The notes under the pieces: model-generated
Database searches by the model: none
Seen by the model: only the letters and a program-made list of their open reading frames with translations
What the model was told of the DNA's origin: nothing
Translations under genes and position numbers: made by a program
In this document: one piece after another, positions 56,411 through 64,000 of the stretch
Position numbering within the stretch: position 1 is the stretch's first letter
Layout: each line of letters opens with the position of its first letter
From: Petrimonas sp. IBARAKI
GTDB taxonomy: Bacteria; Bacteroidota; Bacteroidia; Bacteroidales; Dysgonomonadaceae
Length of the DNA: 64,000 nt
Assembly (NCBI GenBank): GCA_002356435.2
Contig: AP018040.2
Span: forward strand, 124,001-188,000
Direction: 5' to 3'

Positions 56411-57208
56411 CTACAATTGGTTTTTATTCATTCTCCTATCCATTTCCTGTGCAATAAACGACGCCACGTCATCGGCATACGTGTTCATCCCGAATCCGGC
56501 ATCGTAACCGAGCTCTTTGGCCAGCTCGTGTGAAATGCGGGGCCCTCCGGCACAAAGGATGATCTTTTCGCGTAATCCTTCGGCTTCGAGCATTTCCACC
56601 AGCTCGACCATATTCTTTATGTGTACGTCTTTCTGAGTAACGGTCTGGGATACCAACAGCGCATCTGCATTCTTTTCGATACCTTTGGCAATAAGTTCTT
56701 CGTTAAGCACCTGGCTTCCCATATTCACGGCTTCGAACATGCCGTATCTTTCCAGGCCGAATCTTCCGGCAAACCCTTTCATGTTCATGATGGCATCGAT
56801 ACCGACGGTATGTGCATCGCTTCCGGTACTTGCTCCGACCACCACTATTTTCCTGCCTATATGCTCCCGGATAAACGTATCGGTTTGAGAAATATCCCAT
56901 TTCACGGAGGATACTTTGGGTACGTGGACCTGCGTGTAATCGATGCTCCCGGTATAGCTCCCGTAACAGTTGAAAAACGTAAATCCTTCTTTCAATTCTT
57001 GATAATAAACAACTTGAGGGTTGTCGAATCCCATTTTTCGCAACAATTGCCGGGCGGCTTCAACAGCTTCGTCTCCGGCAGGAACGGGCAGGGTGAAGCT
57101 CAGCTGTGTCTTGCCGTCGTTCATCGTGTCGCCGTAAGGTTTTATCCGGGTCAGGTCCAACGTCTGGTCGAAATCGCAGGGGCGGGTCTTGTACAGTCCT
57201 TCGCTCAT
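56411..57208 (-). CDS. kamE: Lysine 5,6-aminomutase beta subunit (KamE)
   Basis: 265 residues. The adenosylcobalamin motif is ASTGSDAHTVGIDAIMNMKG: Asp131-x-His133-x-x-Gly136, with His133 as the cobalt ligand, and Lys144 as the PLP-binding Lys known for the clostridial enzyme. An N-terminal dimerisation domain (about 1-100) precedes the Rossmann-like B12 domain. With KamD it moves the 6-amino group of beta-lysine (or D-lysine) to carbon 5. Start overlaps the kamD stop (ATGA). Confidence 0.96.
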   Translation of the reverse strand: MSEGLYKTRPCDFDQTLDLTRIKPYGDTMNDGKTQLSFTLPVPAGDEAVEAARQLLRKMGFDNPQVVYYQELKEGFTFFNCYGSYTGSIDYTQVHVPKVSSVKWDISQTDTFIREHIGRKIVVVGASTGSDAHTVGIDAIMNMKGFAGRFGLERYGMFEAVNMGSQVLNEELIAKGIEKNADALLVSQTVTQKDVHIKNMVELVEMLEAEGLREKIILCAGGPRISHELAKELGYDAGFGMNTYADDVASFIAQEMDRRMNKNQL

Positions 57209-58770
57209 AATTTATCGGGTTTGGGGTTCATTAAGTCAATAAACGGATTGTAATATTGCGTTCCTTTCACCGATACGCCGTCCAATCCTTTTCCACCGTT
57301 CTTGGCACGTTTTATATTGCCAAAAATACCTTTTTCCAGTGCATTGAAGAGCCCTCCCTCCTGAAGTTCCTCGAGCAATGCGATGGTATTGTCCAACACC
57401 TCCCTGGCTCTTTTTTGGATGATTCCGCCCGCTTTAAACTCCACTTCATCGCCAAGGTTACGCATATTGTTGAAGATGTATCGGGCATTTTCTATGGATA
57501 GGTAGCGGTCGCTCATGAAGGGTGTGTGAACGGCTTCGGTGGGCATCCCCAGCAGTTGAATTCCTTGCGATGTCCAGACGCCGATCATATTGAAAAGCGC
57601 GTCCTGCAGGTGCCCCTTGAAAATGTTTCCCGTCATGAATTTTGTGGGCGGCATGTATTTCAGTGGCGCCTTGGGGAATATTTCGCGGGTCAACTGTGCT
57701 TGTGCGAGTTCGAAAAGGAACCCATTCTCGAGATCGGGATCCATTTCAAAAGCGTGCCCCAGCCCCATTTGCTCTTCGGGAAGGCCGGCAAGCAGGGCCA
57801 GCTGTTCATTAATCAGGTCTGATGCCAGCACGGTATGCGCCTCTTCCACGGCATCGGCAGTGGTGAGGTAGTTGTCTTCTCCGGTGTTGATGATGACACC
57901 TGCAAACCCGTTGATGACACGCGACATAAACTGGTCGACCATCGTACGCTGCATGTTGATGTCGCGGAAAAGGATGCCGTAAAGCGCGTCGTTAAGCATT
58001 ACGTCCAGTCCTTCCAGGGCTCCCATCGCGGCAATTTCGGGCATACACAATCCGGAACAATAGTTGCACAAACGGATGTATCTTCCGATCTCTTCACCCA
58101 CGTTGTCAAGCGCACGGCGCATGATGCGGAAATTTTCCTGCGTGGCGTACGTTCCGCCGAACCCTTCGGTGGTAGCACCATAAGGCACATAATCGAGCAG
58201 GCTTTGCCCCGTGGTGCGAATAACGGCGATAATGTCTGCCCCCTGCCTTGCGGCGGCTTCGGCTTGCACCACGTCTTCATGGATATTGCCGGTTGCCACT
58301 ATCACATAAAGGTACGGACGGCTTCCTTCGCCGATGGTCTCGAGGTAACGTTCCCTTTTTTTCCGTCTCTCCGCTATTTGACGGATGCTTTTATCGACAA
58401 ACGGTTGCAATGCACGGGCGATCTCTTCTTTTGAGCGAAACGGAAAAGCCGTGATATCCAAGCTCTCCGAAGCCACCCGTTCAGCAATTTGCTGCGGTGG
58501 CAGCTCCGTTTCGATAACCGCGTTGGCCAAAAAGAAAAGAACACCCTGCTCCAATACATTCTTTCTTTTCAGATCGTCTACCAGCACGTTCGGATACGGT
58601 ACCCCGGCATCGTCGATATCGTCTATTCCCACTAAACGGCAGAGTGTCCGCTCAACGGCCACCGTGGTGTAATTGTCGGCAAAAGAATGCACGTCGGCAG
58701 CAATACTGCCGGCAATTTCGCGTGCGTATTTTACCTTCTTGAAATCTATCCCCAGTTTACTTCTGACCAT
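57205..58770 (-). CDS. kamD: Lysine 5,6-aminomutase alpha subunit (KamD)
   Basis: 521 residues, the TIM-barrel subunit that binds PLP and substrate. Typical segments: RTLCRLVGIDDIDDAGVPYP, YLYVIVATGNIHEDVVQAEA, IAVIRTTGQSLLDYVPYGAT, NYCSGLCMPEIAAMGALEGL and FMTGNIFKGHLQDALFNMIG. Length fits the family (about 516). Works as a KamD2E2 complex with B12 and PLP. It begins 2 bases after the MutS-like gene and overlaps kamE by 4 bases, so these are tightly coupled. Confidence 0.96.
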   Translation of the reverse strand: MVRSKLGIDFKKVKYAREIAGSIAADVHSFADNYTTVAVERTLCRLVGIDDIDDAGVPYPNVLVDDLKRKNVLEQGVLFFLANAVIETELPPQQIAERVASESLDITAFPFRSKEEIARALQPFVDKSIRQIAERRKKRERYLETIGEGSRPYLYVIVATGNIHEDVVQAEAAARQGADIIAVIRTTGQSLLDYVPYGATTEGFGGTYATQENFRIMRRALDNVGEEIGRYIRLCNYCSGLCMPEIAAMGALEGLDVMLNDALYGILFRDINMQRTMVDQFMSRVINGFAGVIINTGEDNYLTTADAVEEAHTVLASDLINEQLALLAGLPEEQMGLGHAFEMDPDLENGFLFELAQAQLTREIFPKAPLKYMPPTKFMTGNIFKGHLQDALFNMIGVWTSQGIQLLGMPTEAVHTPFMSDRYLSIENARYIFNNMRNLGDEVEFKAGGIIQKRAREVLDNTIALLEELQEGGLFNALEKGIFGNIKRAKNGGKGLDGVSVKGTQYYNPFIDLMNPKPDKL

Positions 58771-58772
58771 AC

Positions 58773-60158
58773 CTATTCAATATATTTTTTTATCCGTTCT
58801 AAAATAGTTTCATTCACACCAATTATCTCCGCAATTTTCAATGCTTCGTGCGGCACTTCCTTTTCCGCGGTTTCTTCCAGCGAATAGTCGATGAAAGAGT
58901 TGATGTTGGCGACGGTTATTTTTTCGTTGTTCCTGTTTTCCGTAAATCCTTTCACGCGCAGCTTCCGGCAGGACATGCCGATACTGTAGTGTGTGGTGAT
59001 AAGCGATTGCACGTTATGCTGAATGAAGAAGTCGAGTATTCCGCACACTATGGCAGCGCCTTCTGCCGGATTGGTGGTACGGGCCGGTTCATCAATAAGT
59101 ACAAGTTGTTTAACTTGTTGATTTGTGTTGTCGATAGCGGTGTTCAGGCGAAGCATTTCGGCAGCAAAAGAAGAGAGCCCTCTCCCTTCGTCCTCACTGT
59201 CGCCCACGCTGATAACAATTTGTTCAACGGGCACAACGGTTGCCGATTGGGCAGCAACGTAAAACCCAAACTGCATCATTGTTTGTGCCAGGGCCACGCT
59301 TTTCAGCAGAACGCTCTTGCCCGACATGTTGGCTCCGGTAATCACGGTGGGTTGCATCGGGACAGTGATATCCACCGGCTGAAAATCCTTGTGTTGCCCC
59401 CGCAACAAGTTCCGGATTTCAGGATGGAACAGTGCAGTGTATGCGGTTCTCTGGTCGTCGACGGTTGGCCTGCATAGTCCTGATTCTTTTACCTGAAGGG
59501 CTTTGGCAAACACAACATCAAGCCGGGCAATTTCGTGCAAGGCTTTCGACAAGGCTGGAGCGTGCGGAAGAAGCTGTTGTACAAGGTCTTTTCGGATCTT
59601 ATCCTCGAGCAGTTGCGCCTGTAAACGAACCGGCTCTGTTTCCTGTTCGTCACACTCTTGCCCCGACATCCTGCTTAATTGAGTACGCAGCGCTGCCAGG
59701 GCCGGTGAATAACGGTCGTACACGTAAAAGTGAGGAATTCGTTTTTTTTCCGGGTCGAGGATATCGATAATTTTTTCGAGAACAGGGATAGCTGCAAAAG
59801 AAATTTTCAATTGTCCGGCAAGTTCGCGCACGGATTCTGCAAGCAGGGCGAAATGTTTTATTTCGAACAGTTCAATATCGGTCAATGTGTTTTTGGTTGA
59901 GAGGAGTCTTACGGTCCCTGAAATGTCGCGTAACTGCGTCAGCCTCGAAAAGAGCACCGACAGTAGTCTCTCGTTCTCCGTTGTGTTGACGATGTTGAAA
60001 GCCGTTTCAGTTTCATCCATAGCTGTTTCAATATCGTTTCGGTTTGTCAGGAACGGCAAAGAAAACAGCTCCTTTCTTCCGGCGGGAGAAAGAATGTTCA
60101 GCGAGTTTAGGATATAACCGAATCCGCTGATTTGCTGTATGGCTTGTCTTATGGTCAA
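58773..60158 (-). CDS. MutS-like ATPase of the lysine cluster (no mismatch domain)
   Basis: 461 residues. The C-terminal half is a MutS ATPase core: Walker A VITGANMSGKSVLLKSVALA (275-282 GANMSGKS), a DSEDEGRGLSSFAAEML segment like the MutS D-loop/signature, and Walker B LVLIDEPARTTNPAEG (about 352-367). The N-terminal half is helical and corresponds to the lever/clamp region; the mismatch-binding and connector domains are missing. Starts with TTG at 60156-60158, overlapping the P-loop gene stop (TTGA). Similar proteins sit in lysine and ornithine aminomutase clusters of other bacteria and have been suggested to reactivate or assemble the B12 enzyme. Not a mismatch-repair MutS. Confidence 0.85.
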   Translation of the reverse strand: MTIRQAIQQISGFGYILNSLNILSPAGRKELFSLPFLTNRNDIETAMDETETAFNIVNTTENERLLSVLFSRLTQLRDISGTVRLLSTKNTLTDIELFEIKHFALLAESVRELAGQLKISFAAIPVLEKIIDILDPEKKRIPHFYVYDRYSPALAALRTQLSRMSGQECDEQETEPVRLQAQLLEDKIRKDLVQQLLPHAPALSKALHEIARLDVVFAKALQVKESGLCRPTVDDQRTAYTALFHPEIRNLLRGQHKDFQPVDITVPMQPTVITGANMSGKSVLLKSVALAQTMMQFGFYVAAQSATVVPVEQIVISVGDSEDEGRGLSSFAAEMLRLNTAIDNTNQQVKQLVLIDEPARTTNPAEGAAIVCGILDFFIQHNVQSLITTHYSIGMSCRKLRVKGFTENRNNEKITVANINSFIDYSLEETAEKEVPHEALKIAEIIGVNETILERIKKYIE

Positions 60159-61186
60159 AATTCTTGGTTGCTGTCCGTTGGATGAATTATTCTTTTCACA
60201 TCATATACCGGCACATTCAGTGCTTTGTTCATTTCCCGTTGAAGCGAGTCGGGATCGAGCCAAAAGCCGCTGGGCGATAATGGATTTACCGTCACGGCAA
60301 TGAGCTTGCTTCGTACGACACTCTTCATCGAATTTCCGCTTTTCAGGAATGCGTTGAATTCTTTTTGCGAGACAAATAATTTTGTGAAATCGCTCACCAT
60401 CAGTTCAACATTCCTGTTCTGTAACCGCAGTATTGAAAGCAGCTTATCGCTTACGGCTCCCGGTACGTATATTCGCGTACCAAACCGGAAAATATCCTTT
60501 TCCCTTTTATCGAGAAGGAATACCGAGGGTATTTCCAAATCGCGCACACGGCCATCGGCGTCTATCGCCCACATACCGCCTTTTAACGGTTGCAGTTCCC
60601 GAACAAGTTTCCCCTCAACGCACGGCAATTCGATCAGCTGCTGCACAAAGCGCGTTTCACGCACCAACTGCGGGATGTTTGCCGAAAGTGACGCTCCCGT
60701 GGAAAGAATCATTGCCTCGGTAACAACAGGTGAGGCAAGACTCAGGCGCGACAGTGCACCGTCCACGATTGTGGTTTGAACACCAAAACGGCCCATTCCA
60801 TCGATAAGCTTCTTCATTCCGGCGGTGTCTGGTGGTCCGGAAAGGACAACTTTTCCCAGTAATTTGACACGTGCCGTTATCAATCTGCCTAATGCCGTTC
60901 GTACGTCGCCAACCTCCAAAATCTCCGATACAATTCTCCGTTCGGAATAGTGTTTCTCGGAGGTCACAAAAATCATTCCCTCGAACAGTGTTATTTCCGG
61001 CTTGGGTGTTAGCGTAACGCTGTCGGTGCGTTCTCCGTCTACACCGATCGAGGTCACTGCCACTTGCACGTTCTTCCTCTTCAGGCGATTTAGGACGTAG
61101 TTCAACGTTTCGGTTTTTCCCGTGTTTTTTTCGAGTCCTACGATCGAAACGCTGCGGTGGGATAATATGTCGTCGATAAAGGGCAC
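60155..61186 (-). CDS. P-loop protein of the lysine cluster, unknown function
   Basis: 343 residues. Near the N-terminus VSIVGLEKNTGKTETLNYVL is a Walker A-like loop (Gly17 to Thr25), followed by VAVTSIGVDGERTD and LSGPPDTAGMKKLIDGMG, giving a SIMIBI/MRP-like P-loop arrangement. It has no recognised catalytic domain. It starts with GTG at 61184-61186, one base after kamA ends, and overlaps the MutS-like gene. Position between kamA and the MutS-like/kamDE genes suggests a joint role in the aminomutase system, for example cofactor exchange or reactivation. Function is otherwise unknown. Confidence 0.8.
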   Translation of the reverse strand: MPFIDDILSHRSVSIVGLEKNTGKTETLNYVLNRLKRKNVQVAVTSIGVDGERTDSVTLTPKPEITLFEGMIFVTSEKHYSERRIVSEILEVGDVRTALGRLITARVKLLGKVVLSGPPDTAGMKKLIDGMGRFGVQTTIVDGALSRLSLASPVVTEAMILSTGASLSANIPQLVRETRFVQQLIELPCVEGKLVRELQPLKGGMWAIDADGRVRDLEIPSVFLLDKREKDIFRFGTRIYVPGAVSDKLLSILRLQNRNVELMVSDFTKLFVSQKEFNAFLKSGNSMKSVVRSKLIAVTVNPLSPSGFWLDPDSLQREMNKALNVPVYDVKRIIHPTDSNQEF

Positions 61187-62513: not shown

Positions 62514-63554
62514 TTAGGCGTATAATTCCGTAAAGATATTCCGCAGTTTTTTTGACTCCCGGAGAAGTTGAAGCGTGATTTCGGCGTGTCCGCGGGTGTA
62601 ACCGTTGCCCACGATCATCGTCACGTCACTGCCCACACCTTCGGCTCCGAGAGCCGCTTTCGTGAAACTGGTTGCCATAGAGAAGAAATAAACCACACCC
62701 GTATCTTTGGTGATAAGGATACTGGTCATTTCGGTATCGGGGATATTTACGTTGTTGATGGTAACATCGGCAAGTTGCCCGCTGGTGAGCACTTCTATTT
62801 TTTCCAGAACGGCCACCGGTTGCGTGGCATCGGCCGGAAAGACGTGATCGCAAAAGCCGAGTGTGGTAAGCCGGTCGGTACTCTTTTGCGAATGGGTTAT
62901 CCCGATAACTTTTCCAGTAATGCCGGCCCTTTTTTTGGCCTCGTAGCAGCAGAGCATTCCCGATTTTCCGCCGGCGCCGATAATCACCACCGTGTCTCCC
63001 GGTTTCACCAATTTGGCGGTTTGTGCAGGCGCCCCTGCAACGTCTAACGCCGAGAGGGCCAGCTTCTCGGGCAAGTCTGCAGGTATCCGGGCGTAGATTC
63101 CACTCTCGAAGAGGATGGCTTTCCCGTCGATATCTACCTGGTCCACTTCGTCGCGGATCTCCTTGATGTTGTCAATACGCAGCGGGGTAAGCGAGAGGGA
63201 AACCAGGGTGGCAATCTTGTCTCCAATTTTTAGGTCGGTCTTTCCGACGAGCGCATCCCCGATTCTTTCGACCGTTCCCAGCAACATCCCTCCCGAACCC
63301 GTCCACGGATTGCGGTGTTTACCCTGTGTGGCAACGATTTCGAACATGATTTCCTTTATTTTCTCGTGGTCGCCTCCGGCACGCGCCGAGATATCGGTAA
63401 ACGATGCCGAGTCGATGTTGAGGGTCTGTACGTCGATGAGGATTTCGTTGTCGTAAATCTCATCCATGTTGTTGTCGATTTTGTTTGCCGGTTGCGGCAA
63501 CACGCCTTTCGGCTCAATGACGCGGTGTGTGCCGTACTTGTTTCCTTTTTTCAT
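62514..63554 (-). CDS. kdd: 3,5-diaminohexanoate dehydrogenase
   Basis: 346 residues. Dinucleotide-binding region VKPGDTVVIIGAGGKSGML (GxGxxG-like, GAGGKSG) and the preceding LSALDVAGAPAQTA segment, resembling a zinc-independent MDR-like fold. N-terminal KGNKYGTHRVIEPKGVLPQP is typical of Kdd. It oxidises L-erythro-3,5-diaminohexanoate to 5-amino-3-oxohexanoate with NAD(P)+. Located between kce and kamA in the operon. Confidence 0.93.
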   Translation of the reverse strand: MKKGNKYGTHRVIEPKGVLPQPANKIDNNMDEIYDNEILIDVQTLNIDSASFTDISARAGGDHEKIKEIMFEIVATQGKHRNPWTGSGGMLLGTVERIGDALVGKTDLKIGDKIATLVSLSLTPLRIDNIKEIRDEVDQVDIDGKAILFESGIYARIPADLPEKLALSALDVAGAPAQTAKLVKPGDTVVIIGAGGKSGMLCCYEAKKRAGITGKVIGITHSQKSTDRLTTLGFCDHVFPADATQPVAVLEKIEVLTSGQLADVTINNVNIPDTEMTSILITKDTGVVYFFSMATSFTKAALGAEGVGSDVTMIVGNGYTRGHAEITLQLLRESKKLRNIFTELYA

Positions 63555-63631: not shown

Positions 63632-64000
63632 TCATAATGGGTTTAATCCCAGAATAGCTCGTGCTTCCGCAGGCGTGGCGATCTCCCGGTTCAGGAGTTT
63701 TGCCATTTGAACCACTTTATTTACGAGTTCACCGTTGGATTTTGCCAATACGCTGCGAGACAGGTATAGGTTGTCTTCGAATCCCACGCGTACGTGTCCT
63801 CCCATGGCGATGGCGTGTGCGGCAAGGATAAATTCGCTCCGCCCTATTCCGGTGGCAGTCCACGTTGATCCGGCCGGAATCCGGTTCACCATCCATACCA
63901 GGTTCTCGACGGTTGCCGCGGCACATCCGGGAACACCGAGAACAAAGTTGAACTGCATGGGCGGGCCGGGGACATATCCTTTGGCTGCTAGGTGAAGTGC
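63632..64000 (-). CDS. kce: 3-keto-5-aminohexanoate cleavage enzyme, C-terminal part (cut by window end)
   Basis: 122 residues visible; the frame stays open to the window edge, so the N-terminal half with the main zinc-site residues is missing. Visible blocks QFNFVLGVPGCAAATVENLV, GRSEFILAAHAIAMGGHVRV and FEDNLYLSRSVLAKSNGELV are the C-terminal part of BKACE/Kce proteins. The enzyme uses acetyl-CoA to cleave 3-keto-5-aminohexanoate into 3-aminobutyryl-CoA and acetoacetate. First visible gene of the operon; kal and probably atoD would be expected further upstream. Confidence 0.93.
   Translation of the reverse strand, partial: ALHLAAKGYVPGPPMQFNFVLGVPGCAAATVENLVWMVNRIPAGSTWTATGIGRSEFILAAHAIAMGGHVRVGFEDNLYLSRSVLAKSNGELVNKVVQMAKLLNREIATPAEARAILGLNPL

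Follow-up and report, generated by a model that had tools for sequence, protein, structure and literature searches.

The lysine 5,6-aminomutase KamDE of Petrimonas sp. IBARAKI, which depends on adenosylcobalamin (AdoCbl) and PLP, is probably served by two dedicated ATP-driven helpers, KamB and KamC, which would reactivate it by cobalamin exchange. The genes of both lie in the window, the whole stretch of 64,000 nucleotides that was analysed. Each protein exceeds the cut-off of an NCBIfam family: KamC that of NF052383, 'lysine 5,6-aminomutase reactivase ATPase' (435.8 bits, cut-off 300), and KamB that of NF052386, 'reactivase subunit' (340.2 bits, cut-off 210). 'Reactivase' is here the name of a family, which we count among the weak points of this explanation. 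One operon encodes the two proteins together with KamDE, no difference was found that sets them apart from the NCBIfam KamB and KamC, and by these sequence comparisons the pair consists of ordinary members of named families. The idea of a MutS-like protein in reactivation or assembly is already known, in print as well as in NCBIfam. A mutS gene and a hypothetical protein are both indicated in the legend of a 2011 figure of lysine-fermentation clusters (PMC3149608). Krishnan et al. 2020, as cited in an excerpt of a 2022 review (PMC9164220), proposed ATP-dependent metalloprotein assembly from the occurrence of MutS-like proteins in operons with AdoCbl enzymes. No experiments on KamB or KamC were found among the literature matches listed, in a search with subscription journals mostly outside its reach.

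The genes are arranged as follows, with positions of the window:

56411-57208, minus strand: kamE, NF052385, 395 bits (cut-off 280)
57205-58770, minus strand: kamD, NF052384, 913.8 bits (cut-off 600)
58773-60158, minus strand: kamC, MutS2-like ATPase of 461 aa, TTG start, NCBIfam NF052383 and Pfam MutS_V
60155-61186, minus strand: kamB, P-loop NTPase of 343 aa, GTG start, NCBIfam NF052386
61188-62465, minus strand: kamA, lysine 2,3-aminomutase, TIGR03820, 612.9 bits (cut-off 525.4)
62514-63554, minus strand: kdd, L-erythro-3,5-diaminohexanoate dehydrogenase, NF052381, 269.4 bits (cut-off 200)
63632-64000, minus strand: kce-like, 3′ part only, an open-ended reading frame named from sequence reading

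Read along the minus strand, the order is kce, kdd, kamA, kamB, kamC, kamD, kamE, followed 3′ of kamE by atoA and genes for a thiolase, a crotonase and a 3-hydroxybutyryl-CoA dehydrogenase (names from sequence reading). By these assignments kamB and kamC sit in a lysine-fermentation operon, between kamA and kamDE. The preliminary description had them fused into it by overlaps. This is true of kamB and kamC themselves, which share 4 nt (TTGA), as do kamD and kamE, whereas gaps of 1 and 2 nt separate kamA from kamB and kamC from kamD, respectively. The kce-like gene runs past the right end of the window and is complete in the adjoining stretch (L140, 1636-2457). Beyond it, on the same strand (L140, 2474-3521), lie kal and atoD, named from sequence reading only; their presence in the continuation of the operon suggests that this lineage may use the ammonia-lyase route and not the Kat transaminase route.

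The order kdd-kamA-kamB-kamC-kamD-kamE is identical in Fusobacterium vincentii and Acetoanaerobium noterae, the one record sampled for Fusobacteriota and for Bacillota, respectively. This conservation, together with identical distributions of KamB and KamD over 295 genomes (see below), excludes a chance arrangement. Across these phyla, KamB and KamC of the window share 30-34% identity with their counterparts, compared with 60-68% for KamA, KamD and KamE; judged by identity, KamB and KamC are thus the fast-evolving members of the operon. Among seven named loci, the KamB proteins most similar to that of the window are those of two MAGs, one from Bacteroidia (83% identity) and one from Petrimonas (79%). 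For L015, L017 and L018, three of these loci, no KamD was found in the sequence stretch around KamB, which counts against a reactivase of KamDE. On the other side, no OraE (ornithine aminomutase) exceeded its cut-off in the genome of the window, which counts in favour of KamB and KamC as helpers of KamDE.

KamC matches Pfam MutS_V (3.2e-25) and, below threshold, MutS_III. Neither a mismatch-binding domain nor an Smr domain was detected, since no other Pfam match occurred at E<=0.001. The earlier reading of KamC as a MutS ATPase core devoid of mismatch-binding domains is therefore borne out, domain I being undetected in Pfam. The protein carries the motifs GANMSGKS (275-282), LSSFAAE (328-334), LVLIDE (352-357) and TTHY (388-391), which we take to be Walker A, signature, Walker B and H-loop; these MutS-type motifs are intact. 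In the Walker B region, the window protein reads DEPARTT and its two closest relatives (L013 and L014) DELARTT, both versions recurring among other KamC proteins. KamC does not qualify as a mismatch-repair MutS (122.5 bits versus 480 and 100.7 versus 641.7, domain I not detected) nor as a MutS2 endonuclease (157.5 bits, cut-off 400, Smr not detected, end at 461 aa). MutS2 proteins nevertheless cover most of the KamC model (e.g. positions 11-433 of 508). The predicted structure has a pLDDT of 71.7, with portions of the C-terminal third below 50, and all best 50 Foldseek rows are MutS-family proteins, the best being MutS2 (E 9.1e-18). In a tree, 26 KamC proteins fall on one side and MutS, three MutS2 and a 604-aa paralog (n = 5) on the other. 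This tree was rejected as proof of a single origin because the separating branch carries no support and long branches meet there. The 604-aa paralog is a further MutS_V protein of the genome of the window (G000:C1:1454178-1454663, L004), distinct from MutS, MutS2 and KamC.

KamB, the second Walker A protein announced in the preliminary description beside the MutS-like gene, does carry a P-loop, GLEKNTGKT at 17-25. It matched no Pfam family and no further NCBIfam model at E<=0.001, and its sole sequence match in the PDB up to E 10 was uninformative (8bns, E 0.23). One structural model of five reached a pLDDT of 81.3, the other four 50-62. None of the 50 Foldseek rows listed reached E<=0.001 in the PDB; they are mostly Get3, SRP54, MinD, ParA, NifH, MobB and MeaB, neighbours which we take to be of the SIMIBI class. 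KamB is thus probably a SIMIBI P-loop NTPase, a hint at the level of class only, and we count this fold class as a weak point given one good model of five and insignificant matches. MeaB/MMAA, the G3E GTPase chaperone of methylmalonyl-CoA mutase, resembles KamB in being a P-loop NTPase which serves an AdoCbl mutase; among the weak fold neighbours MeaB ranks 44 and 50 with an insignificant E of about 0.06, and it shares no Pfam or NCBIfam sequence family with KamB.

To what extent do the two proteins follow KamDE? KamB was found in 38 of 295 Bacteroidales genomes and KamD in 38 of 295, and the two sets are identical (naive probability 9e-49, related genomes not being independent). KamB and KamD lie within 12 kb of each other in 25 of these genomes and 42 kb apart in one; in the other 12 they are on separate contigs, in some cases perhaps because the assembly is broken there. 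In G433 such a break is unlikely: KamB lies deep in a 1.39 Mb contig and KamC and KamD on two others. KamB and KamD also come and go together among close relatives: genus g178, with three genomes listed, has both in two and neither in one, and both are missing from three more genomes in the family of the window. KamC was searched in 56 genomes, 18 of them without KamD. It exceeded the cut-off in 36 of the 38 Bacteroidales genomes with KamB and KamD. In G358 a KamC fragment adjoins KamB at a contig end; in G593 (68% complete) KamB and KamD are present and KamC was not found, which counts against a reactivase made of both. No KamC above the cut-off was seen in 11 KamB-negative Bacteroidales genomes. 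All 14 named control genomes were negative for KamB, KamD and KamC at the cut-off, the KamC model matching MutS or MutS2 below it in 11. In the window's genus, where KamB and KamD were searched in the genome of the window only, five of 10 genomes have KamC above the cut-off and G003 has a piece of it at a contig end. Co-occurrence with KamDE, as expected in the preliminary description, is therefore confirmed even where the genes are unlinked. The reverse, frequent occurrence of the pair in genomes lacking any B12 aminomutase, would have argued against that description; KamC was above the cut-off in none of the 18 genomes without KamD.

As to genome organization, G433, G536 and G625 (Bacteroidales) have kamB, kamC and kamD on three contigs, all of them retained. 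The records NZ_CP084075.1 and NZ_CP154629.1, chromosome-sized (2.1 and 2.6 Mb), are filed as plasmids.

KamB also occurs without KamC. Among 345 Bacteroidota genomes, KamB-type proteins were found in eight: the genome of the window, the only one with KamD, and seven outside the window's class, whose scores of 171-206 bits fall short of the cut-off (210). Each of these seven has the KamB-like gene directly 3′ of a gene for a ~600-aa protein with a B12-binding domain and a TIM barrel (B12-TIM), and none has KamC above the cut-off. A profile search with B12-TIM in the same 345 genomes found exactly those seven. In the class of G272 (149 genomes), KamB-like proteins occur in nine and B12-TIM in ten; in the tenth (G666), the contig ends where KamB would follow. 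The two samples share five positive genomes, the class sample contributing four more, and the results for KamC and KamD are those for the seven genomes of the phylum sample. Outside Bacteroidia, the KamB homologs are below the cut-off in 10 of 11 genomes and just over it in G673. All 49 KamB genomes of the three samples carry KamD or B12-TIM.

In the three B12-TIM proteins scanned, the closest NCBIfam model of the N-terminal B12-binding domain is KamE (1.7e-11 in L058). The barrel is weakly KamD-like, with Pfam E values of 0.0008 to 0.056 in five of six scanned and no match in the sixth. The motif DPVHDVG keeps the histidine of KamE (DAHTVG) and OraE (DEHSVG); we assume the role of this conserved histidine and that of the KamE lysine as PLP lysine. 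A leucine stands at His+11 in 11 of 11 B12-TIM proteins, at the PLP-lysine position of KamE and OraE. This lysine is Lys629 in OraE, according to an excerpt of a review (PMC3958899). Because leucine replaces it throughout, we rejected the idea that B12-TIM works as an aminomutase with PLP in the manner of KamDE and OraE; by its domain it is a B12 protein, but not a PLP aminomutase of known kind.

The genes around B12-TIM form a second operon, in the order GntR, diaminopimelate-dehydrogenase-like, DUF6917, a ~490-aa probable PLP enzyme, a ~80-aa protein, B12-TIM and KamB-like. This order was observed in 10 of 11 loci read (L058-L064 and L135-L138, Bacteroidota outside the window's class); L062 carries one additional CorA-like gene within it, and in L064 the contig end truncates KamB. 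The remaining locus, L138, sits on a short contig that begins at DUF6917 and stops within KamB. Family labels were assigned by scanning one member of each family and were extended to the others by similarity. They are clear for the dehydrogenase (313 bits, NCBIfam cut-off 180.6) and DUF6917 (143.5 bits, Pfam cut-off 27) and weak for the ~490-aa protein (20.8 bits, cut-off 21.5). No mention of DUF6917 was found in the literature searched, which mostly excludes subscription journals. By its gene content, this operon perhaps encodes an undescribed amino-acid pathway.

Trees and alignments of KamB reflect the same division. Thirty chosen sequences split on one branch, with support 100/100, into 21 KamDE-associated and 9 B12-TIM-associated proteins, the exact placement of L137, a long row, being unsure. 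The KamB proteins of Fusobacterium and Acetoanaerobium group with those of Bacteroidales, apart from the Bacteroidota KamB-like proteins; the client and not the host phylum therefore marks the split. The 30 sequences have 24 invariant residues in common, including K20, N21, G23, K24 and T25, D50, G51 and E52, and D142 and G143, and the window KamB carries the P-loop and these residues. Residues 181-300 share just 11-20% between the two groups, which suggests that they may constitute a client-facing half.

These results are at odds with KamB and KamC as an obligate pair, as was implied by the preliminary description: KamB homologs stand beside B12-TIM without KamC in all seven genomes checked. 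The occurrence of KamB there, without KamC or KamD, makes KamB look like a general partner of B12 enzymes and KamC like one specific for KamDE, and the tie to a second B12 protein counts in favour of a helper role for B12 enzymes. A wider proposal, to which we give even chances, is that B12-domain enzymes have a larger family of NTPases as partners, to which KamB belongs and whose clades are set by the client. Outside Bacteroidia it would serve, without KamC, an AdoCbl isomerase with an N-terminal B12 domain, a C-terminal KamD-like barrel and leucine for the PLP lysine, in a seven-gene operon of an amino-acid pathway. An extra ATPase, KamC or, for OraSE, GlmL, would be required solely by enzymes whose B12 domain is tethered via PLP.

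We compared the lysine operon with the one oraSE locus read, that of Acetoanaerobium noterae. Here oraSE is followed by the gene for a GlmL-related protein (752 bits); neither KamB nor KamC was found in this locus, and the single KamB of the whole record lies in the lysine operon. As for KamDE, a dedicated accessory gene adjoins a B12/PLP aminomutase, ornithine 4,5-aminomutase, in this case from another protein family than KamB or KamC, which counts against a KamB/KamC reactivase. The statement that MutS-like genes recur near ornithine aminomutases does not hold for this locus, where the neighbour is of GlmL type. A confusion with MutL, a name from the glutamate mutase field, may lie behind the statement.

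That KamDE needs helpers is plausible in view of its suicide inactivation and of the activator of the native enzyme. In an excerpt of a review (PMC3958899), recombinant KamDE is reported to undergo suicide inactivation to cob(III)alamin, and native lysine 5,6-aminomutase to have had an activator, E2, of ~80 kDa. The same excerpt attributes to E2 an AdoCbl synthetase activity, with label of [8-14C]ATP passed to the enzyme, and describes ATP as an allosteric effector when E2 is present, a response which recombinant KamDE alone does not show and which OraS of ornithine aminomutase was reported to restore. Activity was also reported for recombinant KamDE produced in E. coli in the absence of E2 (PMC3958899). 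Part of another review, which cites Toraya and Mori 1999, holds E2 responsible for reactivation and ATP-dependent regulation, perhaps via cobalamin exchange (PMC9081730). In the excerpts of both reviews (PMC3958899, PMC9081730), E2 is named without a gene. Suicide inactivation is presented as the obstacle to lysine 5,6-aminomutase as a biocatalyst in a portion of a further paper (PMC12429584). The masses of Acetoanaerobium KamB (37.4 kDa) and KamC (57.0 kDa) make a 1:1 complex only loosely compatible with E2 (94 versus ~80 kDa). The ~80 kDa and synthetase activity of E2, and the restoration of ATP regulation by OraS, count against simply equating E2 with KamB plus KamC.

The diol dehydratase reactivase DdrAB carries out an ATP-dependent exchange of damaged cobalamin. 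The likeness to KamB and KamC is a functional analogy only, neither protein matching a DdrA- or GlmL-type reactivase family (Pfam and NCBIfam, E<=0.001). In the mechanism that we propose, KamDE would inactivate itself in turnover and be left holding dead cob(III)alamin. KamB would recognise and contact the module of B12 domain and TIM barrel, and KamC, an ATPase resembling MutS2 but devoid of the parts that face DNA, would hydrolyse ATP and by ATP-driven closing of its dimer open the KamD2E2 assembly, so that damaged cobalamin may leave and AdoCbl be reloaded. For the reactivation machine suggested in the preliminary description, the family names and a distribution which tracks KamD even when unlinked are favourable; its obligate pairing is not retained.

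Four other explanations were weighed. KamB could be an adenosyltransferase or a loader of AdoCbl, rebuilding it from ATP and cob(I)alamin or delivering it to KamE, and KamC an assembly factor; the two would then act in maturation and not in repair. The synthetase activity and label transfer of E2 would fit this explanation, as would the occurrence of KamB with two B12-domain proteins, one of them without KamC, and loading and reactivation are indistinguishable by sequence. We consider it unlikely: KamB lies outside the known adenosyltransferase families, since comparison with Pfam and with the remaining NCBIfam models gave no match at E<=0.001. A single intervention by both proteins, to fold or assemble KamD2E2 or to insert PLP once and not at each inactivation cycle, would leave the same strict co-occurrence. 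Nevertheless, assembly of KamDE in E. coli needs neither KamB nor KamC, as recombinant KamDE was active without E2, and this explanation appears highly improbable.

The allosteric effect of ATP in the presence of E2, to which recombinant KamDE alone is unresponsive, would agree with KamB and KamC as an ATP-sensing regulator of KamDE instead of a repair device. However, OraS restores this regulation without KamB or KamC, and the intact MutS-type motifs of KamC suggest work by hydrolysis, although regulators can hydrolyse too; we regard a pure regulator as very unlikely. Finally, the nearest solved relatives of KamC are MutS2 and MutS, which could point to a MutS2-type nucleic-acid or ribosome-rescue protein present in the operon by chance. 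This explanation deserves hardly any credence: KamC scores far under the MutS2 and MutS cut-offs, has 461 aa compared with 840 aa for the genome's own MutS2, and follows KamD in its distribution over the 56 genomes tested.

Taken together, these results make KamB and KamC the obvious candidate for the role of the E2 activator. Beyond family names, they provide evidence for KamB as a general B12 partner and KamC as a KamDE-specific one. A MutS-fold ATPase acting on an enzyme and not on DNA would, if true, widen the known uses of this fold, and the branch with KamB alone leads to a B12 protein not described so far, perhaps also to a new pathway.
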